DNA from: a virus
IMG/VR virus record: IMGVR_UViG_3300048797_000193
Span: 1 to 31,525 of that record
DNA length: 31,525 bases
Direction: 5' to 3' (one strand)
In this document: one piece after another, positions 211 through 29,033 of the stretch
Position numbering within the stretch: position 1 is the stretch's first letter
Layout: each line of letters begins with the position of its first letter
The notes under the pieces: model-generated
Databases searched by the model: none
What the model saw: only the letters and a program-made list of their open reading frames with translations
Told to the model about the DNA's origin: nothing
Translations under genes and position numbers: made by a program

Positions 211-240
211 TTGGAAGATATCATGTTCGAGTTTTTTTCA

Positions 241-259
241 TGTTCGAAATTTTTGAACA
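241..259. promoter_or_regulatory. AbiE operator 1, 7-5-7 inverted repeat
   Basis: The sequence TGTTCGAAATTTTTGAACA has arms TGTTCGA and TTGAACA around a 5-base spacer, one mismatch from perfect. It lies upstream of the -35 element of the AbiE promoter. A further TGTTCGA half site starts at 224. AbiEi proteins of characterised AbiE systems bind inverted repeats in their own promoter and repress it, so this is a likely autoregulatory operator (inference). Confidence 0.65.
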
Positions 260-282
260 GTCTAAAAAACAGAACGCAGTTC

Positions 283-311
283 TTGACATGTCCCCTTACA
301 GACCTTATGTT
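283..311 (+). promoter_or_regulatory. Promoter of the AbiE operon
   Basis: A perfect TTGACA at 283-288 is followed after 17 bases by TATGTT at 306-311, a good sigma-70-type pair. It sits between the two 19-bp operators. Transcription would begin near 318, so AbiEi starts upstream of this point are unlikely. Confidence 0.65.
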
Positions 312-324
312 CGGCTTTAAGGAT

Positions 325-343
325 TGTTCGATTTTTTCGAACA
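325..343. promoter_or_regulatory. AbiE operator 2, perfect 7-5-7 inverted repeat
   Basis: TGTTCGATTTTTTCGAACA is a perfect palindrome with arms TGTTCGA/TCGAACA and a spacer of five T. It has the same geometry and nearly the same arms as the copy at 241-259. It lies just after the predicted transcription start, where a bound repressor would block initiation or clearance. Confidence 0.7.
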
Positions 344-360
344 CGTTATGGATTCGAACG

Positions 361-1398
361 GTGATCAACCAAGTGAAAGAAAATCTAATTCAAATAGCCC
401 TTCAGAAATTTGAGGAGCAAACCGGCTTTGTCTGCAGCCTTATCGACCAAACCCCGCTGACCACCGAGCAAGAGCCACTTCGCCCCGGCACCTGGGTCGG
501 AATCCAGGGGGGAACATTGCCTGTGACCTTTGTGGCCCAGGCGAAGAAGACCATCGGTAGGGCCTGGCTCCTCGAAGAGGTGAAACAGCAACTGAAGGCT
601 TACAACGCCCCCGGCCTGTTGGTCACCCGGTATCTCACCCCTGAATTGGCAAGGCAATGCAAGAACTTGGGCCTCCAATTTCTGGATACAGCCGGGAACG
701 CCTATATCAATCAACCCGGAGTGTTCATCCAGATCACGGGCCAGCGCCCAGAGGTCGACCCTTGGGAGGAGGCCACGAACATCAAGGGCTTCACCCCCGC
801 TGGCTTGAAAATCATTTACGCATTCATCTGCAAACCAGACCTCCTCAACGCCCCTTTCAGGGAAATAACGAAGGCCGCTAGCGTCGGGCTTGGCACGGTG
901 GCAGAAATCATTGGAGACCTCCAAAAGCAGGGTTTCCTGGTGACGACCGAGGACCTAAAGCGAAGGTTAGTCAACACTCAACGGTTGCAGCGGACTTGGA
1001 TCGAAAGCTTTCCAAACCGGCTTCGAGGAAAACTCCAGGGGAAAAGGTTCACGGCTCCGGATCCCGAATGGTGGAAGGAAGCCCGGCCAAAGGAGCAAGG
1101 CGCGTACTGGGGAAGCGAGGTCGCCGCGGCCAAGCTGACCGGGTACCTAATCCCTCAAACCTGCACCCTCTATACCCACGAGGACCCCAAGGCCCTCATT
1201 CTGCGTTACCGCCTCCGCCCCGATCCCATGGGGACCATCGAGATACTCAAGGCCTTCTGGAATCCAGCCGTGCCTCAGGGGCCTGCGGGCTGCGAGGATG
1301 TGGTGCACCCCCTGCTGGTCGAGGCAGACCTGAAGGCGATCGATGACCCCCGCACCTTTGAGACGGCAAGACTGATCCATGACAAGTTCCTCGCTTAA
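361..1398 (+). CDS. abiEi: AbiEi-family antitoxin / autorepressor
   Basis: A protein of about 345 residues resembling AbiEi-type antitoxins of type IV toxin-antitoxin systems. Characterised AbiEi proteins neutralise the AbiEii toxin and repress their own operon through an N-terminal winged-helix domain. Here a helical segment with a winged-helix look lies in the middle (around GLKIIYAFICKPDLLNAPFR, then TKAASVGLGTVAEIIGDLQ), so the domain order may differ from the Streptococcus protein. The frame is open back to ATG 211, but the promoter at 283-311 lies inside that extension, so I chose GTG 361; GTG 373 is an alternative. Neither has a clear ribosome binding site. The 3' end overlaps the toxin gene by 20 bases. 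The family is recognised from its pairing and general sequence, not from a search. Confidence 0.7.
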   Translation: MINQVKENLIQIALQKFEEQTGFVCSLIDQTPLTTEQEPLRPGTWVGIQGGTLPVTFVAQAKKTIGRAWLLEEVKQQLKAYNAPGLLVTRYLTPELARQCKNLGLQFLDTAGNAYINQPGVFIQITGQRPEVDPWEEATNIKGFTPAGLKIIYAFICKPDLLNAPFREITKAASVGLGTVAEIIGDLQKQGFLVTTEDLKRRLVNTQRLQRTWIESFPNRLRGKLQGKRFTAPDPEWWKEARPKEQGAYWGSEVAAAKLTGYLIPQTCTLYTHEDPKALILRYRLRPDPMGTIEILKAFWNPAVPQGPAGCEDVVHPLLVEADLKAIDDPRTFETARLIHDKFLA

Positions 1399-2254
1399 CC
1401 TCAAGCACCCCCTGGATGTAGCCCTGGTCGCCCTATTGACGGACGTAGACCAGGTTTGCAAGTCAGTCCAGGTGGACTATCTGCTAACCGGTTCGATGCC
1501 CCGGGAAATCGCCCTATACCATGTCTTCGGGCTAGACAAGGGGCGAGGGACGGCTGATGTGGACTTCGGAATTTCAGTCCAATCATGGGAACAGTTCGAA
1601 CTGCTTCGGGCCGCCTTCCTGGCCTCGGGCCAATTCGACAAAGACCCCAATCCAAGTGTCTTCTGGAGCATAAGACCCGGCCGCCTTCAAGTCGACCTGA
1701 TGCCTTTTGGCGGGATCCAGAAGGACGATGGCTTCATTGCCTGGCCACCCGAGGAGCGCCAGCGCATGAATGTGCTTGGCCACGAGGCCGCCCTACGACA
1801 CGCCTGGCGCCTTCCCCTTCCAAACCAACTCGAGATCCCCATGGCCTCCCTGCCGGGGACCGTCCTGCTGAAGCTGATGGCCTGGAGGGATCGAGGTGAA
1901 GCTAGGGGAGGCAAGGATGCTCTCGACCTGATGACCATACTGGAGAGTTACGACCGAGTGTTGGGCCAGGATGCCTTGTTTGGCCCATTCCAGGATCTGC
2001 TCGTGGCTTACCAGTTCGACCAGACGGCCACGGCTGCCCATGCGCTGGGCGCGGAGATCCGGGACATGGCGGAGGCTCGGACCCTTGAGGTATCGCTGGA
2101 ACCGTTCTCAGAGCCGGGAAGGGCTTTATTGAAATTGCACATGATTCGCAAATACCAGACCGTGGACCGAAGCCGGCCCCTTGCACGTGCCGAGGAATTG
2201 CTGAAAGCATTAGAAAGTGGTCTTCGGACGGGACTGGTCGTGCCGGGAGGTTGA
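1379..2254 (+). CDS. abiEii: AbiEii/AbiGii-family nucleotidyltransferase toxin
   Basis: This 291-residue protein has the nucleotidyltransferase signature of AbiEii toxins. GS at residues 38-39 is followed by Asp60 and Asp62 in ADVDFG and a third acidic residue, Asp106, in QVDLMPF. A second conserved patch, KLMAWRDR followed by GGKDALDL (residues 165-184), matches the K...R...KDxxDL region of the family. AbiEii-type toxins act as nucleotidyltransferases and cause growth arrest; some characterised relatives modify tRNA. The substrate of this one is unknown. The start overlaps the antitoxin end, as expected for translational coupling of a toxin with its antitoxin. All catalytic positions look intact, so the toxin should be active. 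Confidence 0.8.
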   Translation: MTSSSLNLKHPLDVALVALLTDVDQVCKSVQVDYLLTGSMPREIALYHVFGLDKGRGTADVDFGISVQSWEQFELLRAAFLASGQFDKDPNPSVFWSIRPGRLQVDLMPFGGIQKDDGFIAWPPEERQRMNVLGHEAALRHAWRLPLPNQLEIPMASLPGTVLLKLMAWRDRGEARGGKDALDLMTILESYDRVLGQDALFGPFQDLLVAYQFDQTATAAHALGAEIRDMAEARTLEVSLEPFSEPGRALLKLHMIRKYQTVDRSRPLARAEELLKALESGLRTGLVVPGG

Positions 2255-5306: not shown

Positions 5307-7527
5307 TGGGAGTCTCCGGGGCCGAAGCCGTGGAAGAGCCCATGCGACCAGCGGTAACGCCAAGCACCTTGGGGATTTGGTTGTTAATGAGGTTGTTCAT
5401 GGCCGGGGAGCCCGGAGTTAGATTGCTGGCATGGATGAGCAGGGCCCGGCCTTTGGGGTCCGAATAGAGGGCCATCAAGCGATCCTTGTTCAGCCAGTCG
5501 ATGCCCTTGAGCACGGTCCCAAACATGGTCTGGTTCCCCTCTACCTTGGCTCCGATCGACTGGGCCGTGACGCCGGTGGGCGGGGTGAAGCCGACGTTGT
5601 CGGATCGGTCCACGGTGCGGAGGATCTTGGCCAGACCGGAAGCAGCCCAGTTGTCCTGCCCACCGGGGAAGGCCACACTCATCACCCCATTGCGCTGCAG
5701 CTGCTCGAGCTTCAAGGCCGCGCTGGCGGCGCCGAAGGTCTGGCCCATCACCCCGCGCTGGGTTTTCTCTCCAGCTCCGATAGCGTCCTCCACCAGGCCG
5801 GCGCGGATCGCGGCCTGGCCCTTGGGATCCAAGAGCCCGAAGAACCGGGTCTGCTGGGCGGTGTTCTGTCCCATGAACAGGTTGGCCGCCTTGAGGGGGT
5901 CGGTGTCGGCGAGGGCCCGCCCGAAGGCGGCCTCCTTGTAAGGCACCACCTGGGTTCGGTAGTGGTCCGTGGCCGCCTGCCAGGCATTACGCATCCCGGA
6001 GGAGTGGCCCTTGGCGAACTTGTCCAGATCCCGCTCCAGAGCGTCAATGGTGTTCTGGAGGTAGGGCCTGGCGTCGGAGGAGCCCTGGACCACAGACTTG
6101 GGATCCACCATTTCCGAGAGCTTGTTGTTCAGGGCAGTGCGCATCTCCCGGAGGTCACCGAAGCCGGTATTCTGGCTCCCATCCTCGATACCGGTCAGGA
6201 TCCGCTGGAGGTAGGGCACGGAGGACTGATCCGCGGCCGTGTTGCGCTGGATCGCGCCGATGCTGGCCTTGAGGGATCCGACCAAGTTGGCAGGGTCCAC
6301 CGGGCCATAGAGCCGGGCGATCCCCTCGGCCTTGTCATAGAGCTGGTCCGCCTTGAGTTTGTTCACGAACAGATTGAGGTTCCCGCTCTGTTGGGCGATC
6401 TCCTTCCAGTCATCCCCGGAGTTCTGAAGCGCAGTCAAGAGGGTCTTGGCCGCCCCCTGGCGCTTCCCCGGTTCGACGGCGGCCTTCTCCACATCAGCGA
6501 CGGTCTTCCACCCAGTCTGCCGCACGGTCGTCTGGAGGTCCTCCACCACCCGCTGGGCATAGGCTGACGCCTGCTCGTTTTCCTTCAGCCTGAGTTCCAT
6601 CATGGCGGGGTTGTTCCGTGCCAGGGCGTTCTCGTGGGCCCGCACTACGGGGTCTCCGGTGATATCGCCCACGGTGTGAGCGGTGATTCCGGCCTGGTCG
6701 AGCTCCTGGGAGAGCGCCGGAGCCCCGGCGTATTTCGGATTCAAGGCCGTAGGGATCCCCAGCTTGTTGCCCAGAGTCGTCCCGGCCAGGGACGAGGCGG
6801 CCTTCTTGCCGATCCAGCCAAGGCTGTCCGTCAAGCCCTGCCCCGCGAAGGTGCCAGGAATGGCAAGGGCGCCGGCCACGCCCTTCTGCTTCTCGGTCCC
6901 GGGCGTGGTCGCCACAGCCGTAGAAACGGCCGCGGGTAGGGCCTGGGCAACGCGGCCAAGATAGGTGGCGGCAGGCGCTTCCCCTCCTGTCGCCACGGTG
7001 GCGGCCACAACAGGCACGGCCTGACCAATGAAAGACCCGACCTTGGCCTTGAGTCCGCCCCGGGCCACCTCAGCATCGGCCACGGCCTGGCGCTGGGCGA
7101 AGTCCTGGTTCACGCCCTGGATCTGGCCGGGGTCGTAGGTGCCGGTGGGCATGGCACCCTGCATGACATGATCCACGAACTGGGCACCGGTCTGAGCCAC
7201 GGCGCGCCCGGCAGTCTTGAGGCCCGAGGCCAAGCCCCCCAGGAAGCCCGGGGCAGGCGTGGCTTGCCCATCAGCATCGCCCATCCGGTTGCCCTTGGCA
7301 TCGAACCACCCAGGCTTGCCGGTGTTGCCCTGGTCGGGCCCGAAGTAGACGCCCCCATCAGGGCGCTGGACAGAGGCCTTCCCGCCGCCAATGTCGATGG
7401 GCTTCACCTGGGATTGCCAGTCAGTGGCAGCCGAGGCATGGACTGGGGAGGCCACCGAGGCGTAGGGATCCCCCTGGGGTGCGGGGGTAGCCGCTGTTGA
7501 AAAGGAGGCGTAGGGATCTTCAGGCAT
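5281..7527 (-). CDS. Large ejection protein candidate (P22 gp16-like position)
   Basis: A 748-residue protein with a disordered, repetitive N-terminus (PYASFSTA, then PYASVASP), an Ala/Gly-rich weakly hydrophobic stretch around residues 165-235, and long helical segments afterwards. Its size and position, as the third of three consecutive genes before the tailspike, match the P22 gp7-gp20-gp16 set. Those proteins are packed in the virion and enter the cell envelope during DNA delivery. The start overlaps the previous stop by one base (TGATG). No lytic transglycosylase motif is seen, so a purely structural ejection role is more likely than murein cleavage. The assignment rests mainly on gene order. 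Confidence 0.6.
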   Translation of the reverse strand: MPEDPYASFSTAATPAPQGDPYASVASPVHASAATDWQSQVKPIDIGGGKASVQRPDGGVYFGPDQGNTGKPGWFDAKGNRMGDADGQATPAPGFLGGLASGLKTAGRAVAQTGAQFVDHVMQGAMPTGTYDPGQIQGVNQDFAQRQAVADAEVARGGLKAKVGSFIGQAVPVVAATVATGGEAPAATYLGRVAQALPAAVSTAVATTPGTEKQKGVAGALAIPGTFAGQGLTDSLGWIGKKAASSLAGTTLGNKLGIPTALNPKYAGAPALSQELDQAGITAHTVGDITGDPVVRAHENALARNNPAMMELRLKENEQASAYAQRVVEDLQTTVRQTGWKTVADVEKAAVEPGKRQGAAKTLLTALQNSGDDWKEIAQQSGNLNLFVNKLKADQLYDKAEGIARLYGPVDPANLVGSLKASIGAIQRNTAADQSSVPYLQRILTGIEDGSQNTGFGDLREMRTALNNKLSEMVDPKSVVQGSSDARPYLQNTIDALERDLDKFAKGHSSGMRNAWQAATDHYRTQVVPYKEAAFGRALADTDPLKAANLFMGQNTAQQTRFFGLLDPKGQAAIRAGLVEDAIGAGEKTQRGVMGQTFGAASAALKLEQLQRNGVMSVAFPGGQDNWAASGLAKILRTVDRSDNVGFTPPTGVTAQSIGAKVEGNQTMFGTVLKGIDWLNKDRLMALYSDPKGRALLIHASNLTPGSPAMNNLINNQIPKVLGVTAGRMGSSTASAPETPNDLSTPPR

Positions 7528-9098
7528 CAGTGTTTCACCCTTTCTACCCCGTCAAGGCCGAGGAAGTGCGTCCCTGCCGGTAGCTTGGCGGCGTCCTGGG
7601 GGGACATTTTCTGGAGGGCCGGGGCGGCCGTGGGGGTGGAGCCAGAACCTGCCTGGGGGTTGGCAGGCTGCTGCTGCCAGGGGACATTCCCCTTGAGGGC
7701 CGCATCCCGCTGCTGGGTCCATGAGGCCCGCTGGCCCTGCACCATCGTCTGGAGGGTGGTGACGGCCCCGCGGGACTGCTGGGGAGAGGCGAAGGAGGGC
7801 AGCAGCTTGCCCATCGTTGCTCGTTCCTCGGCGCTTCCGGCGCCCCCAGAGAGATACTTGCCGACCTCTTCAGAGAGGACATGGCCGGCCAGCTCCAGGT
7901 TCTTGGCCTTGTCGTTGCCCAGCTGGACCCCGAGGGTGTTGGCGGCCTTGTTGGCCAGCTGCATGTTCCCGTTGTCCAGGGCTGTGGCCATCTGGAGGTA
8001 GGCGTCGGCATGGTGGATGATGGTTTCCTGTTGACGGAAAGCATCGGCGCCCTTGCCGGTCGTGAAATATTTCGTGGCTTCCTGCTGGTTCTTGAACTGC
8101 ACCTTGTTCCCAGCGATGTCTCCTCCACCCTGCTGGGCCAGATACTCCGCCCGGGCATTCCGGGTGAGCGCCCCAGGATTCCGGATCGACGGGGTCTCCC
8201 TAGCCCCAGTCTGGGCAGCGTAGCGGGCCTGGGACTCCTCGGCGGGGCTCAGGGGCTGGGACGGATCGAAGGCAGCACCTCCACTGCCCCCCAGCAGGGT
8301 CAGAGCGTTGGGCGCGATGTAGTTCATCTTCTTCAAGTGGGCCGCTACCTGGGGGTTGCTCATGTCGATGGAGCCGTCAGGCTTCAGGGCGCCGATGTCC
8401 GAGGCGAACCTCTTGAGGTCGCCGGGGGCAATGTCCTTCTCGATGGGATCTCCGTTGGGGGTGGCCTTGCCGGTGAGTTTGTTCACCGACACGGGCTGCG
8501 TGCCCGTTCCCGTATCCACCATGTGGTGCTCGTCGGTGAAGAGCCCAAGGAGGTCCTTGGAGGCGCCCAGGGTGGCGCCCTGGATCTTGCCCCAGGTGGC
8601 GAGGTCGGCCGGGTTCCGGGGGAGGCCCTGCAGCAGGCCCTGCGCCTTCTCGGGCGGAATGTTCCCCTGCTGGACGTGGCTGGCAATGACCTGGGCTACC
8701 TGCTGGGGTGTGGCGCCCTCAGCCTGGGACGCGGCCATGACGTCGCCGCCCACCTTGGCCATGTGATCCGTGGCCAGCTTGAACTGATCAGCGCTCAGTT
8801 TGGTCTGCTTCGAGGCCAGGTCGGTGTACTGGGTGCGCCATGCCTGAGCCGCGGGGCTGCCCAGCTGGCTCACGGCCTTGATCGGGTCAAGCCCCTTGGA
8901 CTGGGCCTGCTGCAGGGTGGTGCGCAACTCCTGGGCGTCCTGCAGCTGCTGGGCCATCTGCTGGTTCTGCATGGCGCCCTGCTGGTTCTGCTGAGCCATG
9001 TGCTGGATGGACGCCACCTTGCCCATGCCCTCCATGAGGTCAGGCGCGGCAGTGGTCGGCTTGTTGGCCATGGAATAGATGCTTGCAAAATCAGACAT
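7527..9098 (-). CDS. Ejection protein candidate (P22 gp20-like position)
   Basis: The 523-residue product begins with a Gln-rich coiled-coil region (roughly residues 30-75, with QQNQQGAMQNQQMAQQLQD). A helical middle follows and then a second helical domain (residues ~310-460). There is no signal peptide or clear membrane segment. It lies between two other candidate ejection genes, eight bases after the first and overlapping the next by one base. In P22-like phages this slot encodes DNA ejection proteins that form a conduit across the envelope. I recognise the type by composition and order, not by a specific motif. Confidence 0.55.
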   Translation of the reverse strand: MSDFASIYSMANKPTTAAPDLMEGMGKVASIQHMAQQNQQGAMQNQQMAQQLQDAQELRTTLQQAQSKGLDPIKAVSQLGSPAAQAWRTQYTDLASKQTKLSADQFKLATDHMAKVGGDVMAASQAEGATPQQVAQVIASHVQQGNIPPEKAQGLLQGLPRNPADLATWGKIQGATLGASKDLLGLFTDEHHMVDTGTGTQPVSVNKLTGKATPNGDPIEKDIAPGDLKRFASDIGALKPDGSIDMSNPQVAAHLKKMNYIAPNALTLLGGSGGAAFDPSQPLSPAEESQARYAAQTGARETPSIRNPGALTRNARAEYLAQQGGGDIAGNKVQFKNQQEATKYFTTGKGADAFRQQETIIHHADAYLQMATALDNGNMQLANKAANTLGVQLGNDKAKNLELAGHVLSEEVGKYLSGGAGSAEERATMGKLLPSFASPQQSRGAVTTLQTMVQGQRASWTQQRDAALKGNVPWQQQPANPQAGSGSTPTAAPALQKMSPQDAAKLPAGTHFLGLDGVERVKH

Positions 9099-9106
9099 AT
9101 GCTCTC

Positions 9107-9823
9107 CTAAGCGACCACTTCAGTTCCGCCGTTGCCCGACCCGAACAGCGCGCCACCGGAGGGGTTTGTGTTGAGGTAGCCGTTGGGCACGGTGGTGCCA
9201 CTCCCACCGCCCATGAGCTGGTAGTTCATGAACTGGTTGCCCATGTTGTTCAGCGTCCCGGTGATCTGGTTGCTGTTGGCGAGGTAGCCTGCGGCTTGGC
9301 CGTTGCCCGCGTTCATGGTGTTGCTACTGATCTGGTTGGCCGCGTTGGTGCCGCTGGCGCCCACCTGGGCCCCGGCGTTCTGGCCCAGGCCAGCAATACT
9401 CATCAGGTTGCCGATCTGCGCTTGGTAGCGGTTGAAGGCGCCGCTGTAGGCCGAGCTCCCCACGCCCTGGGCGTAGTTTTCAAGTGCACCGAGGGTTGAT
9501 CCGGCCAGGATCCCGCCACGGTTGGCCGTCTGCCGGTTGATGGCATCCTGGCCCATTTTCATCTGGAAGGCGAGGCCAGGGTCGGAGTATTTGTCGTATT
9601 GGAAACCGTTGGTGGTCAGGTCCCCCAGTTGGCTCATGGCCTTATTCCGGGCATCCATCATCGGCAGATTGTCTGCCCGATTCTGGTCATACATGGCCGA
9701 CTGGGTATTGTTGGCTGCTGAGGCCGCACTCTGCTGAGCGCTGATGGCCTTATTGGTGTTGTTGGTGCTGACGACCGCGCCGAGAACAGCAGCTCCGGCA
9801 ACGGCGGTGATCACGCCTGACAT
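9107..9823 (-). CDS. Small ejection protein candidate (P22 gp7-like position)
   Basis: A 238-residue protein with a short hydrophobic N-terminus (VITAVAGAAVLGAVVS), a helical Ala/Gln-rich section (SAQQSAASAANNTQSAM) and a Gly/Asn-rich second half (GNGQAAGYLANSNQ). This composition is common in podoviral DNA transfer proteins and in P22 gp7, the smallest ejection protein. It is the first of the three candidate ejection genes and overlaps the end of the cupin-SET gene by 13 bases. The N-terminal segment could be a membrane-inserting or processed leader. Function is inferred from order and composition. Confidence 0.55.
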   Translation of the reverse strand: MSGVITAVAGAAVLGAVVSTNNTNKAISAQQSAASAANNTQSAMYDQNRADNLPMMDARNKAMSQLGDLTTNGFQYDKYSDPGLAFQMKMGQDAINRQTANRGGILAGSTLGALENYAQGVGSSAYSGAFNRYQAQIGNLMSIAGLGQNAGAQVGASGTNAANQISSNTMNAGNGQAAGYLANSNQITGTLNNMGNQFMNYQLMGGGSGTTVPNGYLNTNPSGGALFGSGNGGTEVVA

Positions 9824-10650
9824 AGGGCCCCCTTGATTTCTGAAAGAGCGAGAGTTTCTCGATAATCCGTGATGATTTCCTCGCCTTCGCGGATCAGCGC
9901 CAGCGCCTTCAGTTCAATCTGCCCCGCAGCCAGGTGCATCTGGGCGTTGGGGGTGTGGCTGTGATTCGTATAGCGGCCAAGCTGCGTGCGCATGCCATCG
10001 ATGCGGGCCAAGCCGATGGGATCCCCAGGCCAGAAGGACTGGGCAGCGAACACGCCCGTGCCGTGGATCCGGGAGGGCCCCAGGGTGACGCCCGGAAGAT
10101 CCACGTCGCGCCGATCGGCCGTGATCTGACTCTGGGCCCAGGCGGTCTCGTGAGAGATGCCCACCTCGGCCAACATGCGGTAGTAGTCCACCCGCTCATC
10201 GGCGGCCCGGCCAGTCTTGAAGTCCAGGACGTTACCCTCGTCCTCGTACAGCACCTCCTCGAGGCGGTCCAGGTCGGTTTCCACCGCGGCGTGCACGGTG
10301 ATCCAGAGGGTGTCCTCATGGGCGTGCCCGATCTGTTTGACCCCGGCCTTCCCCCGGAAGACATGGTGGCCGACCAGGCGCTTGAAGCCATCGGGGGTGA
10401 GAATGGTGATGTCGCCGTAAACCATGATCTGCAGGTCGTCCTGCCGGTGGACCTTTCCGGTGATCCGCACGCCCTTGGGGATGAGGATGGACCGGCTGTA
10501 GAGGCCCTGGGCGAAGACGTGGGTGGGCTCGATCTCCACCTGGGGCAGCTGGCGCATGACGCCCTCGGCCGCCAGGATCGCCGCGCGGACCTCCTCGGGG
10601 CTGTGCTCCTGGACGCCATATCCAGCTTGGCTGACGCGGTGCGTGATCAT
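9811..10650 (-). CDS. Cupin plus SET-domain protein lysine methyltransferase-like protein
   Basis: The 279-residue product appears to have two parts. Residues ~40-125 look like a cupin-type beta-barrel (SILIPKGVRITGKVHR, LQIMVYGDITILTPDG, HHVFRGKAGVKQIGHAHED). Residues ~185-270 carry SET motifs: GTGVFA at 197-202, RYTNHSHTPNA at 226-236 (the NHSxxPN motif that binds S-adenosylmethionine) and EEIITDY at 257-263, whose Tyr is the catalytic position. SET proteins transfer methyl groups to lysine side chains. The gene sits between tail fibre and ejection genes with an ATGA overlap upstream, so the enzyme is made with the virion proteins and may modify one of them or a host target. No post-SET cysteines are seen. 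Confidence 0.75.
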   Translation of the reverse strand: MITHRVSQAGYGVQEHSPEEVRAAILAAEGVMRQLPQVEIEPTHVFAQGLYSRSILIPKGVRITGKVHRQDDLQIMVYGDITILTPDGFKRLVGHHVFRGKAGVKQIGHAHEDTLWITVHAAVETDLDRLEEVLYEDEGNVLDFKTGRAADERVDYYRMLAEVGISHETAWAQSQITADRRDVDLPGVTLGPSRIHGTGVFAAQSFWPGDPIGLARIDGMRTQLGRYTNHSHTPNAQMHLAAGQIELKALALIREGEEIITDYRETLALSEIKGALCQA

Positions 10651-11942
10651 CCGACCTTCCAGGAGGTTCCGTCGTGGTAGACGGGATAGGTGACGGCGCC
10701 CGAGCCGTTGGCAGCCGAGCCGAAGGCGGCTCCGGCGGAGTTGTTGTTGACGAAGGCCCTCATGCCCGCGGATCCGGCCGGGAGGGAGGCAAAGGCGTAG
10801 GTAGGCTGGCTCAGGGAGTTCCCGAGGACCACCGGCCCCGCGTTGTAGAGCGTTCCGGCCACGCCATAGAAGGAGTAGTTGAGGGTTCCCGCGCCGGACG
10901 CATTGGCGTAGATCGCGCAGTTCTGGTAGCCCGACGCGGCGGTGGCGGTGGCGTAGAGGCCATAAGCGGAGCCGGAGGACGCCCCGCTCGCGTTCAGCCG
11001 GAGGACGGTGGCGCCATCTCCGGTCGAGGACTGGTCGATGAGCACCTTCTGCAGGGCCGCCGCAGTGCCTCCGATGCCCAGCTGGCCGATGTTGTTGTCC
11101 CCGGCCTTGTTGATGGGGGTGTAGCCCAGCGCGGCCTGCTTGCCGTTGAAGGTAGCCCAGTCGCCGGCCGTGAGGTAGCCCGGGACGCCTGAAGCCGCCG
11201 CGGCCATGGCCAGGGTGCGGTTGGCGCTCAGGTCTCCGCCGCCGGTGAGGGGGGCCGTGGTGTTGATAGTCCGGGTCGTGGGGGCGGCGCCCACGCTGGC
11301 AGCGGTAGCCGAGAGCACCCCGGCGGCGTTGAGGATGCTGATGCCGTCCGGCTTGACCCCGCCCAGGACGGTCGAGGTGGCCACGGGGAGGGTATAGGGG
11401 GCGGAGACGAAGGTCCAGGCCGCGCCCGTCCAGTTCAGGTAGCCGACCGCCAGGGTGGGCACGGCCTGGCCCATGATCCCGCCCACGGTGGGGTTGGGGT
11501 AGGTTCCGGCCAGGTCGCCGCCGGCAGGGCCAGCCGCGGGAGGCACCGCCCAGGAGCCGTCGGCGCGCAGGTAGTTCAGGATCCCACCCCCGGAGGGAGG
11601 CACCAGGCCTTGGAGCAGGCTGTTGAAAAGGGTTAACAGGGCCGTGGCCTGCGCCCCGGTGAGCGCCTGGGGGGTCGCATCGGCGCCGATGTAGTTGCCA
11701 ATCAGGGTGTGCGTCGGCAGGTCCGCCATCTTGCCCAGTGTCACGACCTTGGGGGCGATGGTGGTCTCGACGGTTTCGCCTCCCTCACCGGTGACGTCCC
11801 CGGTGAGGGTCACGCCCTGCAGCGAGTTGTTCACCCGGGGAGTCAGGCTTTGGGTGTACCAGTGGACGAGGGTCTGGTCCATCCCACCAGATGACTGGAG
11901 GGGGAACGGGTCGAGGGATTTCTGCTGGATAGCGCCGCTCAT
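10647..11942 (-). CDS. Tail fibre-like protein
   Basis: A 431-residue protein rich in Gly, Ala, Thr and Ser. It contains repeated fibre phrases such as DLAGTYPNPTVGG, TTAPLTGGGDLSANRTL and GYLTAGDWATFNGKQ, common in phage tail fibres. The C-terminus (YHDGTSWKVG) matches the usual end of such fibres. It lies directly after the gp10-like gene with an ATGA overlap, so it probably attaches to the tail machine and adds a second host-contact protein beside the tailspike. No chaperone gene of the usual Tfa type follows; the next gene is the cupin-SET protein. Confidence 0.7.
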   Translation of the reverse strand: MSGAIQQKSLDPFPLQSSGGMDQTLVHWYTQSLTPRVNNSLQGVTLTGDVTGEGGETVETTIAPKVVTLGKMADLPTHTLIGNYIGADATPQALTGAQATALLTLFNSLLQGLVPPSGGGILNYLRADGSWAVPPAAGPAGGDLAGTYPNPTVGGIMGQAVPTLAVGYLNWTGAAWTFVSAPYTLPVATSTVLGGVKPDGISILNAAGVLSATAASVGAAPTTRTINTTAPLTGGGDLSANRTLAMAAAASGVPGYLTAGDWATFNGKQAALGYTPINKAGDNNIGQLGIGGTAAALQKVLIDQSSTGDGATVLRLNASGASSGSAYGLYATATAASGYQNCAIYANASGAGTLNYSFYGVAGTLYNAGPVVLGNSLSQPTYAFASLPAGSAGMRAFVNNNSAGAAFGSAANGSGAVTYPVYHDGTSWKVG

Positions 11943-13387
11943 GAGCGCCCCGGCATGACGCCCAGCTCGGCACCCAGGAGGGTGCAGGCGACGGGGTCAG
12001 ATCCGCTGACCTCGAAGACCCGATTGCGGGCCCGGCCCAGGCTCCGCCAGATGGCCCGGGTTCGGTAGCTGCCCTGGGTTCCGGCCGTGCGCCAGATCTC
12101 GTTCGACCAGGTGTGGCCGCTGTCGTTTGAATATCGGAGCATGATCTGGGGGTCGATGCCCTGTTGGGTGCCATCCAGGCCCACACCGGTCTCCAGATCC
12201 AGCTGGAAGGAGTTGTAGAATATCCAGGCCATGTCCTCGGTGAGGTGCGGGGCCCGGCGGAGCCACCGGAGGGGCAGGCCGTTGTCGGTGAAGTTGGTCT
12301 TGTCCAGGGCGTAGATGGCCCCGGTCTGGTAGTCGCCCACCACATGCTGGCCGTTGGCCCAGGCGTGGCAGTCGGCCTGGTTGCGACTCTCGATCCCGTT
12401 GGCGAGGTGGGACCGCTCGTGCCACTGGCCCGTAACCACGTCGTAGACCCAGGTCACCGGGGCCCCCGGCACATTGAGGCAGTAGAACCCGTGGCCGTCC
12501 TGCTCGTAGGTCCAGGCCCTGGCCTTCTGCAGGTTCTCGTAGCCGTAGGACTGGAGGGCAATCTCCACCGCATGGGTGCTCTTCCGCTCCGCCACATACC
12601 CATTGGCCTGCCAGACCACCCCGGCGCCATGCTTGCCGTCGCCCAGCCAGAGTAGGGTGTTCATCACCTTCTGTGGGCTATAGGGGCTACAGCAGCCGAT
12701 CTCGAGGAGCGAACCTGGGACGCGGCTAAGGACGATCCCCGGCGGGGCATTCTGGGCGTTATACCAGACCTCGCTGGTGTCGCGGCCAAGGAGCCATACG
12801 TTGCCCTTGTCCACGATGAGGCTGACGATGGGGTCGTTGAAGCCCTGCTTATAGGCCACATTCAGGCCGTCGTAGGTCGCGAAGTCCAGCTGGTCGGAGG
12901 TGTAGAAGGCGCTGGAGCCCGGGACCGCAAAGATCCCCCACTGGTCGAGGTAGCCGACGCAATAGGATCCGAGCCACCCAGATGTCCCAACCAGAGGCAG
13001 GAACACGTTGCCACCGAAGGTCAGCACGTAGCCCTGCCCATCGGTGATCATCAGTTGCACACCGTTGTCGGAGAACTCGACCCGGCCAGTGGTGGTCCCG
13101 AGGGTGCCCAGCAGGGTCCCGACCCAGCCCGTGCTTACCTGGTAGAGCCCTGCCCCGCTGACGCAGTAGAGGTTGCCGTTGCTGGCCGTGTAGAGCCCCC
13201 GGATGGGCCCGAGGCCGATGGTGCCCAACAAGGTGAGGCCCGGGGTCCGGAAGAGGCTCCCGATCTCGCCGTTGCCGGCCGTGCGGGCCTCGTTCACTTG
13301 GGGGAACAAATTGCAGCACCGCTGGCAGTCCGCGTTCACGCTCTGCAGCTGGTAGGTTCCACCGATGAATCCAGGGAAACGCGCCAT
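11939..13387 (-). CDS. P22 gp10-like packaged-DNA stabilisation / tail protein
   Basis: This 482-residue protein follows the gp4-like adaptor with a one-base overlap (TGATG), as gp10 follows gp4 in P22. The N-terminus (PGFIGGTYQLQSVNADCQRC, then NLFPQ) and repeated beta segments such as GLYTASNGNLYCVSG resemble gp10-family proteins, which close the tail tube after packaging. The motif CQRCCNLF has three close cysteines. It is predicted to be mostly beta-structure with no membrane segment. Family assignment rests on sequence style together with exact synteny. Confidence 0.7.
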   Translation of the reverse strand: MARFPGFIGGTYQLQSVNADCQRCCNLFPQVNEARTAGNGEIGSLFRTPGLTLLGTIGLGPIRGLYTASNGNLYCVSGAGLYQVSTGWVGTLLGTLGTTTGRVEFSDNGVQLMITDGQGYVLTFGGNVFLPLVGTSGWLGSYCVGYLDQWGIFAVPGSSAFYTSDQLDFATYDGLNVAYKQGFNDPIVSLIVDKGNVWLLGRDTSEVWYNAQNAPPGIVLSRVPGSLLEIGCCSPYSPQKVMNTLLWLGDGKHGAGVVWQANGYVAERKSTHAVEIALQSYGYENLQKARAWTYEQDGHGFYCLNVPGAPVTWVYDVVTGQWHERSHLANGIESRNQADCHAWANGQHVVGDYQTGAIYALDKTNFTDNGLPLRWLRRAPHLTEDMAWIFYNSFQLDLETGVGLDGTQQGIDPQIMLRYSNDSGHTWSNEIWRTAGTQGSYRTRAIWRSLGRARNRVFEVSGSDPVACTLLGAELGVMPGRS

Positions 13388-19655: not shown

Positions 19656-19973
19656 CTATTTCCCTCCCTTGAGGAACCAGGTGATGAGGTGGCCGGCCAG
19701 GGAGGTCAGGACGGCCCCGACCATGACCCGATTGGCGTTCTTGGCCTCGCGGTGAGCGCTATGCAGGGCTTGGATGTCCTGTTCGTTGTGCTCGACCCGG
19801 ACGGTGAGCTCGCCCACCTCCCGGCCTTCCTTGTGGTGGGTGTCCAGGAGGGCCGTCAGCTGGGCTCGTATCTGGGCGAGGTCGCTCCCGATGTGCTCGC
19901 CCATGGCTTGAATCTCCCTGCGTAGACCCGTCAGGGCGTTGTCAAACTCGGGGCGGGTGATGGGCTCGCTCAA
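19656..19973 (-). CDS. XhlA-like coiled-coil, tail-anchored lysis protein
   Basis: The 105-residue product has a long coiled-coil region (residues ~8-75) and a single C-terminal hydrophobic helix (VMVGAVLTSLAGHLITWFL) followed by KGGK. This layout matches haemolysin XhlA-family phage proteins, which associate with membranes and assist holin-endolysin lysis. It overlaps the spanin-like gene by four bases (ATGA) and closes the lysis cassette. It could alternatively be a small structural protein, but the membrane anchor and neighbours favour lysis. Confidence 0.6.
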   Translation of the reverse strand: MSEPITRPEFDNALTGLRREIQAMGEHIGSDLAQIRAQLTALLDTHHKEGREVGELTVRVEHNEQDIQALHSAHREAKNANRVMVGAVLTSLAGHLITWFLKGGK

Positions 19974-20563
19974 TGGAGCCTCCCGGCGATGTAGCCGGAG
20001 CCGAGGCCCACAGCGAAGCCCTGGATCCGTCCGCGCCAGAGGTTGGCGGCGGCGATGCCCTGCTGGGCGGCCAAGGCGGAGCGGAGCTGAACCGCCTCGG
20101 CGGCGCTGGCCTGGGCTGACCCCTTCCAGGAGTCCCTTGCCAGGGTGAGGGTGTTCACCTGCGTCTTGAGGTCGGCATTCTCTCGGGATAGCGCTTCCAC
20201 CAGCCGGTCCTGCTCGGCCACCAGAGGAGCCAAGTCCACAACAGGACCCACAGGCTCGGGTGCGGGCAAGGTGGGATCCTGAGGTGGGCGGGGGGCATTC
20301 CTAAGCCGCGCCACTTCCGCGCGCAGCTGGGCCACGGTGGAGGCATCGTTGAGGAGCGCGGGGCCCTGGGCTGAGGCTTGAGCGTCATAGACGGCTCCCT
20401 GGGCAGCGGCGGCCGTGGCCACCTCGTGGTGCTGGTCGGCCTGGGCGACGGCGGCGGAGACCTGGTGCGCCTTATGGCTGTTCCAGACGGCGAAGCCTCC
20501 CAGCGTTAGGAGGAAGGCGGCGGCAATGCCTAGGATGAGGCGGCGCTCCAGTGGTTCAAGCAT
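19970..20563 (-). CDS. i-spanin / Rz-like protein
   Basis: The 197-residue product has one N-terminal membrane helix (LILGIAAAFLLTLGGFAVW), a helical periplasmic part, a proline-rich linker (RPPQDPTLPAPEPVGP) and a second coiled coil (RLVEALSRENADLKTQVNTL). Rz-type inner-membrane spanins have this single anchor plus coiled-coil layout and complete lysis by joining the two membranes. The end carries another weak hydrophobic patch (GFAVGLGSGYIAG), unusual for Rz. It overlaps the holin gene by eight bases. I could not find a partner outer-membrane lipoprotein inside or beside it. Confidence 0.6.
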   Translation of the reverse strand: MLEPLERRLILGIAAAFLLTLGGFAVWNSHKAHQVSAAVAQADQHHEVATAAAAQGAVYDAQASAQGPALLNDASTVAQLRAEVARLRNAPRPPQDPTLPAPEPVGPVVDLAPLVAEQDRLVEALSRENADLKTQVNTLTLARDSWKGSAQASAAEAVQLRSALAAQQGIAAANLWRGRIQGFAVGLGSGYIAGRLH

Positions 20564-20774
20564 CGGGGCCTGCCTTTCCGGGCTGCAGCACCTTGCCTGT
20601 GGTGACGGCCGTGAGCAGGAGCCCGAAGGCCACGTTCCACTCGGTGTTGATGGGCCCGCGGATCATGTCCCAGGTCAGCCACCCACAGGCGCAGAGCACC
20701 ACCAGGGCATAGGCCGCATGGCGAAGGCTCCCTGTGGGGTCGGTGGCGTCGAGGAACGTCTTGAGATAGTTCAA
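20556..20774 (-). CDS. Holin candidate
   Basis: The 72-residue product has two likely membrane helices, HAAYALVVLCACGWLTWDMI and NVAFGLLLTAVTTGKVL, separated by a short RGPINTEW turn, with a short charged tail. Size and topology fit small two-helix holins, which release or activate the lysis enzyme. Its start overlaps the lysis-enzyme stop (ATGA) and its end overlaps the spanin-like gene. Confidence 0.65.
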   Translation of the reverse strand: MNYLKTFLDATDPTGSLRHAAYALVVLCACGWLTWDMIRGPINTEWNVAFGLLLTAVTTGKVLQPGKAGPDA

Positions 20775-21154
20775 GCAGTCACCTGCAGCCGGGTCTCGCC
20801 GCTGTTCTTGACCGAGCTGCGGTCGGCCCGGAGCATGACGATGCAGCCCATGGACTCCTGGCCGTAGTTGGCGCCCTGGCTGGGGCCGTGGATGAAGAAG
20901 GCGGTGCGCTCATGGCCATCATCGGCCAGCATGTCGTTCTCAGGGTCGGGGTGAAGGGCGGCCACCATGGGGCCTAGGTGCCCGTGGGTCTCTTCCCAGG
21001 GGCCGATGGTGTAGAGGCCGCGCGGAAGGGGGCCAACGCCGCGCACCTTCTGCATGTCGGGGTTGTTCTTGCCTGCGTGTTGTCCGGCCCAGCCACGCGC
21101 AAGCTGCAGCTCGTCGCGGGTCATGATTCCGGTGGACTGGCTGTACTTCAACAT
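20771..21154 (-). CDS. Tlde1/DUF2778-like lysis enzyme
   Basis: The 127-residue product matches the layout of DUF2778 (Tlde1-type, L,D-transpeptidase-like) proteins: MLKYSQSTG at the start, KNNPDMQKVRGVGPLPRGLY at residues 29-48, FFIHG with His89, and SMGCIVM with Cys104. His and Cys are the catalytic pair of this fold, which acts on peptidoglycan stem peptides. Known Tlde1 proteins are type VI secretion effectors with L,D-carboxypeptidase/transpeptidase activity. Being upstream of, and coupled to, the holin suggests that here it serves as the phage endolysin. It has no signal peptide, so it would need the holin. A GGAGG site precedes ATG 21154. No other lysozyme-type gene is visible. Confidence 0.7.
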   Translation of the reverse strand: MLKYSQSTGIMTRDELQLARGWAGQHAGKNNPDMQKVRGVGPLPRGLYTIGPWEETHGHLGPMVAALHPDPENDMLADDGHERTAFFIHGPSQGANYGQESMGCIVMLRADRSSVKNSGETRLQVTA

Positions 21155-28162: not shown

Positions 28163-28576
28163 ATGAGCAGAGCACGCCAACCACGGCCAGATGATCTATG
28201 GCCACAACGACTTTTTGTGATCGGCCTGATTGACCAGGCGGTCCAGGAAGGTGCGACCTATGAAGAACTGGCGAAGGCCTTCGAGCTGCCCACCGCATAT
28301 AGCCTGAAGACCGGCTGGAGATACCACTACGACCGGATGCCCCATATCCATACCGCAAAACTCATCGCCAAATACTTCGGCCTCCTCCTTTCAGAGGTCT
28401 ACCCCACTACCACTGGGGAGGATGATTCGGAAGAAGCCAGCGACGTCGAGATGGCGAAAGAGTTGCTGGCGGCGGCCATGGGATCCGACCGCGTCGCCAT
28501 GCTCACTGATCGTCAGATTCTGTCGATCATCAAGGGAGCGGTTGTGGCGGCCGAGGGGATGCTGCCAGAATCCTAG
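28163..28576 (+). CDS. Phage repressor (ImmR-like position)
   Basis: The 137-residue product has a DNA-binding type N-terminal half (GATYEELAKAFELPTAYSLK, then HIHTAKLIAKYFGLLLSEVY) resembling an HTH domain with a longer loop than classic Xre domains. A helical C-terminal half follows. It is divergent from the early leftward operon and is followed one base later by an ImmA-type protease gene, an arrangement known from ICEBs1-like immunity systems where the protease cuts the repressor. ATG 28163 is preceded by TTGAGG at tight spacing; TTG 28145 is an alternative. No LexA-type self-cleavage Ser/Lys pair is visible. Confidence 0.65.
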   Translation: MSRARQPRPDDLWPQRLFVIGLIDQAVQEGATYEELAKAFELPTAYSLKTGWRYHYDRMPHIHTAKLIAKYFGLLLSEVYPTTTGEDDSEEASDVEMAKELLAAAMGSDRVAMLTDRQILSIIKGAVVAAEGMLPES

Positions 28577-28577
28577 G

Positions 28578-29033
28578 ATGAAATTACCATCATGGTACGG
28601 CGTGCACTACCCGACCTTTGTAGATCTTGAACGAATGGCCTCCTCGATGGGCGTGCGTATCGGATACGCCGAGACCCCGATCGGAATTTACCTCCCATCC
28701 TTTCGGGGGGTTCCGGTGATCATTCTCCCCTTCGCCGCTGGCCCCCTGGAGCTCACCTGGTTGTTGGCCCACGAGCTGGCCCACGCGGTGCTGCACACCG
28801 GGGCCAAGAATGCCTGGTCCTACTCCAAGGGCGAGGCCCAGGCGAACCGCTGGGCGGCCCGGGCCCTCATCCCCGAGGCGCGGATCCACGCCTACGCCAA
28901 CGCCTCGCTGGACGCCTTCATCGGGGCCCTGAGTGCGCACTTTGAAGATCTCCCACTGGAGGACTGCCCGGCTCGGCGCCTGGCGGCCAAGATCGCAACC
29001 TACCGCCTTCGGGCGCTTGAGGAGGTGGCATGA
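28578..29033 (+). CDS. immA: ImmA/IrrE-family metallopeptidase (anti-repressor)
   Basis: The 151-residue product has the zinc-protease motif HELAH (His65, Glu66, His69) within LLAHELAHAVLH and a likely third ligand Glu86 in GEAQANRWAARALIP, the ImmA/IrrE pattern. In ICEBs1 and related phages ImmA cleaves the repressor after DNA damage or quorum signals and starts induction. Its gene begins one base after the repressor stop, and its own stop overlaps the lipoprotein start (ATGA). The target here would be the repressor encoded just upstream. Confidence 0.8.
   Translation: MKLPSWYGVHYPTFVDLERMASSMGVRIGYAETPIGIYLPSFRGVPVIILPFAAGPLELTWLLAHELAHAVLHTGAKNAWSYSKGEAQANRWAARALIPEARIHAYANASLDAFIGALSAHFEDLPLEDCPARRLAAKIATYRLRALEEVA

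Follow-up and report, generated by a model that had tools for sequence, protein, structure and literature searches.

A cupin-SET protein encoded beside the DNA ejection gene of phages, a candidate lysine methyltransferase with an optional SET module

Introduction

The viral SET protein vSET (A612L) of chlorella virus PBCV-1 has been called the smallest histone methyltransferase, and it is a precedent for a packaged viral SET enzyme, acting on host H3K27 (PMC7019647). The SET domain described here is likewise a small viral SET domain, with the same fold and motifs and 32% identity over 81 residues. vSET is a stand-alone protein with a longer SET-I that methylates histone H3K27, whereas the phage SET is shorter and forms one half of a cupin fusion encoded in a phage virion operon. 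The best profile and fold matches to the phage domain are the SET domains of MLL1 and EZH2. These chromatin enzymes of eukaryotes have a SET-I, a post-SET and partner subunits, all of which are absent from the phage protein. In 2026, methyl-lysine was described on virion proteins of phages said to have no known methyltransferase, in what was called the first report for phage proteins (PMC13288928).

Among catalogued phage protein families, PHROG 34170 is the same family with the same cupin-SET architecture (full-length E 3.7e-58) and is listed with function unknown. PHROG 12032 and PHROG 24280, which include BPP-1 Bbp23 and BA3_0007, comprise the same cupin without SET, ending in a short helical tail or in nothing instead; in BA3 and most relatives this cupin occupies the corresponding position ahead of the ejection gene. 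Their respective names, ‘short tail fiber protein’ and ‘tail fiber adhesin’, are database labels, and no proteomic proof of the cupin in virions was found in the literature searched. Members of the cupin-SET family are sometimes annotated as SET proteins (BFVD A0A6J5PTS6; MW202744). No paper on a phage cupin-SET protein was found in the open-licence literature searched, whose coverage was partial; mentions of ‘SET domain’ in two phage structure papers refer to immunoglobulin I-set/C2-set and not to the SET methyltransferase. What is new here is that the cupin is constant and that SET is an optional module, repeatedly gained or lost.

Results

Genomic context of the cupin-SET gene

The window analyzed here is the IMG/VR virus record IMGVR_UViG_3300048797_000193, 31,525 bases in length. 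The cupin-SET gene and its neighbors are arranged as follows.

9107-9823, minus strand: DNA ejection protein (PHROG 598, E 1.8e-25)
9811-10650, minus strand: cupin-SET gene, 279 aa, ATG start (open reading frame; PHROG 34170, E 3.7e-58 over residues 16-278; Pfam SET)
10647-11942, minus strand: upstream fiber-like virion gene (weak matches only: DUF5907, E 0.0024; PHROG 27494, E 0.005)
11939-13387, minus strand: head closure Hc3 (PHROG 578, E 2.7e-108)

The start of the cupin-SET gene overlaps the fiber-like gene by 4 bp (ATGA) and its end overlaps the downstream ejection gene by 13 bp; within its operon it is coupled to the ejection gene. A first-pass annotation of this DNA had placed the gene between tail fiber and ejection genes; the ejection assignment is borne out by PHROG 598, while the upstream gene is a putative tail fiber gene, given the two weak matches above. 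The first half of the protein matches PHROG 12032 (E 5.6e-34) and PHROG 24280 (E 2.3e-33), and the following parts are distinguished within it.

10282-10539, minus strand: cupin barrel, residues 38-123 (AlphaFold2 pLDDT 88-98 per 10-residue block; VIA-align; PHROG 12032 and 24280)
10129-10200, minus strand: helical linker, residues 151-174 (AlphaFold2 helices 151-163 and 167-174; alignment with loci L183 and L184)
9841-10101, minus strand: minimal SET domain, residues about 184-270 (AlphaFold2; VIA-align; family profile against the PDB)
10054-10062, minus strand: GxG AdoMet-binding motif G197-T-G199 (G199 in 100% and G197 in 99% of relatives)
9961-9966, minus strand: Asn229-His230, SET pseudoknot motif (both 100% conserved)
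9862-9864, minus strand: Tyr263, invariant SET tyrosine of the (E)xxxDY motif (100% conserved)

A minimal SET domain with intact motifs

The SET motifs that the first-pass annotation had picked out (GTGVFA, NHSHTPN and EEIITDY) are present in the open reading frame, as HGTGVFA at residues 196-202, NHSHTPN at 229-235 and EEIITDY at 257-263. The Pfam SET profile is matched at residues 224-263 with 28.2 bits (E 2.7e-6), above its cut-off of 22.4, and all 53 non-redundant relatives match it as well. Structure prediction of both domains, which had been proposed as a check, returned a SET fold. The AlphaFold2 model, built on an alignment of 53 relatives, has a mean pLDDT of 86.9, with values mostly of 88-98 in both domains and about 96 in the SET domain. 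In VIA-align, the part of the model from about residue 172 to 277 superposes on SET structures (EZH2, MLL1, SETD8, vSET) with Z 9-11, the top scores being PRC2/EZH2 (5ij8, 11.2), MLL1 (7u5v, 10.6) and vSET (3kma, 9.9), and Foldseek agrees with it on both the SET and the cupin folds. The family profile searched against the PDB gave MLL1 (E 3.8e-10) and vSET (E 1.2e-7). The SET fold is thus present, with a predicted pseudoknot, as judged from the pLDDT and VIA-align Z of the whole domain.

The SET signature is conserved, with G197/G199, N229-H230, P234-N235 and Y263 at 96-100% and with G199, R221, G225, N229, H230 and Y263 invariant in 90-92 relatives. SET is under strong purifying selection: over 13 close pairs the median dN/dS is 0.07 for SET and 0.04 for the cupin, and the value between the window and locus L003 is 0.30. 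Because the motifs are conserved and dN/dS is low, we argue for a working SET enzyme, its activity being predicted; the cupin-SET protein is most likely a lysine methyltransferase kept near the tail and ejection machinery. SET-I, an insert that aids in holding the substrate and that is variable and not strictly defining of SET domains, is mostly missing from the phage SET. The stretch between G199 and N229 has a length of 30 residues in 52 of 53 sequences, versus 52 residues in vSET as aligned. The domain is smaller than vSET and, if active, would be an unusually small SET enzyme.

A cupin without metal motifs

The upstream barrel, likened to a cupin in the first reading, is indeed one. Residues 38-123 are confidently modeled by AlphaFold2 and superpose on the cupin HP0902 (5j4g) with a VIA-align Z of 9.8 over 86 aligned residues, and many cupin matches in Foldseek likewise point to a double-stranded beta-helix barrel. 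A sequence search of solved structures with the cupin gave no convincing match. When 172 sequences were searched by regular expression for the metal-binding cupin motif (HxH...E; H), motif 1 was found in 1 sequence and motif 2 in none, and we rejected a reading of the domain as a metal cupin or demethylase on this ground. Since the metal motifs are absent and the cupin fixes the position of the gene (see below), we infer that the cupin is a dock and SET its catalytic cargo; that is, the cupin probably docks and does not catalyze.

Distribution and gene order

Scans of IMG/VR returned at least 581 related stretches with the full-length query and at least 467 with the SET query, and the same cupin-SET fusion is present in hundreds of related viruses, as the first-pass annotation had proposed looking for. 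Named carriers are Pseudoalteromonas phage PH1 and Rhodoferax phage P26218, both isolated phages, together with phage zth2-2 and three Manatee Spring records. Among genomes of bacteria and archaea, 13 loci were found, several of them in Burkholderiales, including one Paraburkholderia assembly with two cupin-SET copies and one SET-less cupin; a search of plasmids gave no match.

PH1, P26218 and others have the gene order of the window (Hc3, fiber-like, cupin-SET, DNA ejection), with some variation. Of the loci with enough sequence, 77 of 102 that have SET and 43 of 57 that lack it are followed immediately by the ejection gene. The synteny with virion genes, whose lack the earlier annotation had named as evidence against its reading, is conserved. 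The overlap with the ejection gene in SET-plus loci is usually 13 or 4 bases, with 13 bp the commonest among relatives with an adjacent ejection gene (44/77). Because the cupin stays in this place when SET is absent, for example in BA3 and other SET-less loci, the gene position belongs to the cupin. BPP-1 also encodes this cupin, as Bbp23, with the surrounding genes ordered differently.

In BPP-1 (8465-9384), a GNAT-type acetyltransferase gene, bbp24 (PHROG 1249), precedes the Bbp23 gene with a 4-bp overlap, possibly another protein-modifying enzyme beside the same cupin. We do not claim a general slot for variable enzymes, as other SET-less neighbors, inspected by eye, contain no obvious enzyme.

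SET as an optional module

The cupin is the constant part of the family and SET is an optional C-terminal module that comes and goes as a unit. At least 11 changes in SET presence are needed on a tree of 103 cupins, and supported branches force at least 4 of them; the tree is built on few columns and leaves many forks open. For example, the cupin DNA of a SET-less protein (L099, 188 aa) and a SET-containing one (L110, 287 aa) is 87% identical, and the two diverge at the cupin end. Relocation of SET in the SET-less relatives was rejected, as a Pfam search found no SET elsewhere in 22 SET-less records, some of which may be fragments.

Among the viral contigs examined, every SET is fused to a cupin (86 fused matches), and because of this constant association the cupin would be expected to matter to SET function. 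The exceptions are two Burkholderiales loci in which SET stands alone or is split from the cupin. In Paraburkholderia ferrariae (L184), replication genes and an integrase flank two overlapping genes, one for the cupin and one for SET, and no Hc3 match was found in that genome. In a Comamonadaceae contig (L183), SET occurs without a cupin; a helicase gene lies upstream of it, and an ejection-like ORF with no PHROG match lies downstream. The link to the virion is therefore not absolute, since in these loci SET or the cupin-SET pair lies away from the usual virion cluster. The helical linker (residues 151-174) accompanies SET even where SET is a separate protein, as seen in the alignment with both loci. 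The P. ferrariae element (about 5400-12535), with its replication O-like protein, DnaB-like helicase, integrase and cupin/SET genes, could be a prophage remnant or a satellite.

Candidate substrates

A screen of the capsid, adaptor, Hc3 and ejection proteins, the last of which align poorly, turned up no lysine that tracks SET presence, and a paired comparison within the BA3-like group likewise gave no SET-tracking lysine. The sole near-invariant lysine is K116 of the adaptor, which is equally conserved in SET-minus genomes. Lysine methylation carried by phage virion proteins is a precedent (PMC13288928), and a virion substrate of the phage SET is plausible.

Discussion

There are several possible explanations for a SET domain in this position. 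The one that we favor, with moderate confidence, is a phage lysine methyltransferase in which a metal-free cupin would dock to the tail or ejection machinery, and a minimal SET domain would use AdoMet to methylate a lysine of a protein met at that site. The substrate would most likely be a phage protein, modified during late assembly, whether a tail, ejection or other virion protein. By extension, and held just as moderately, this widespread group of podoviruses may have a dedicated lysine methyltransferase, held by its cupin in the tail or ejection apparatus, that modifies virion proteins (or is injected), with SET as swappable cargo on a conserved dock. That SET is dispensable in many close relatives counts against the explanation we favor, as do the negative lysine screen and the two Burkholderiales loci, one with its cupin and SET genes beside replication genes and the other with a SET that has no cupin.

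A second possibility is that the cupin-SET protein enters the virion along with the ejection proteins and is carried into the next host, where SET would methylate a host protein early in infection, in the manner of vSET. The coupling of the gene to the ejection protein in most relatives would suit such a route, as would the closeness in fold of vSET (Z 9.9, 32% identity), which is itself packaged and acts on host H3K27 (PMC7019647). We nevertheless regard it as unlikely: the histone that vSET methylates does not exist in bacteria, neither proteomics nor a signal points to packaging, and it is the cupin, which also exists without SET, that sets the position of the gene.

By a third hypothesis, SET modifies a host or regulatory protein inside the infected cell or lysogen, and the gene lies among the virion genes simply because the cupin does, which would make its location uninformative about the substrate. 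The split or stand-alone SET genes adjoining replication genes in the two Burkholderiales loci are consistent with it, as is the finding that no lysine in the neighboring proteins tracks SET; fusion to the cupin in the viral contigs examined (86 matches, those two loci excepted) speaks against it, and we consider it quite improbable. It is very improbable that SET has lost catalysis and now serves the tail as a binding or structural part: the near loss of SET-I (30 residues from G199 to N229 versus 52 in vSET) might be read in this way, but about 90 divergent sequences keep the catalytic tyrosine, the GxG and the NH with little or no variation, beyond what a binding role needs. That the cupin itself is the enzyme (such as a demethylase or oxygenase) and SET its partner is hardly credible, as the canonical metal motifs are missing in 171/172 (motif 1) and 172/172 (motif 2) sequences, even though cupin-fold enzymes acting on methyl-lysine exist (PMC13288928).

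A phage-encoded methyltransferase acting at the tail or ejection site would, if true, amount to a protein-methylation system tied to virion assembly or entry. The cupin-SET family is a concrete phage-encoded candidate for the writer of virion methyl-lysine, and its natural SET-plus and SET-minus relatives are built-in controls.

Other features of the window

At the left end of the window (211-2254, plus strand), overlapping genes encode an AbiEi antitoxin (PF09952, E 8.5e-30) and an AbiEii toxin (PF08843, E 2.8e-6), a type IV toxin-antitoxin pair on the strand opposite to the virion genes. Next to an Rz-like spanin candidate (19970-20563) lies a gene (20771-21154, minus strand) for a small protein with a domain like Tlde1 / L,D-transpeptidase (PF10908, E 6e-11), possibly an unusual lysis enzyme. 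Additionally, an IrrE/ImmA-like peptidase (28422-29033, plus strand; PF06114, E 4e-8) hints at a temperate phage.
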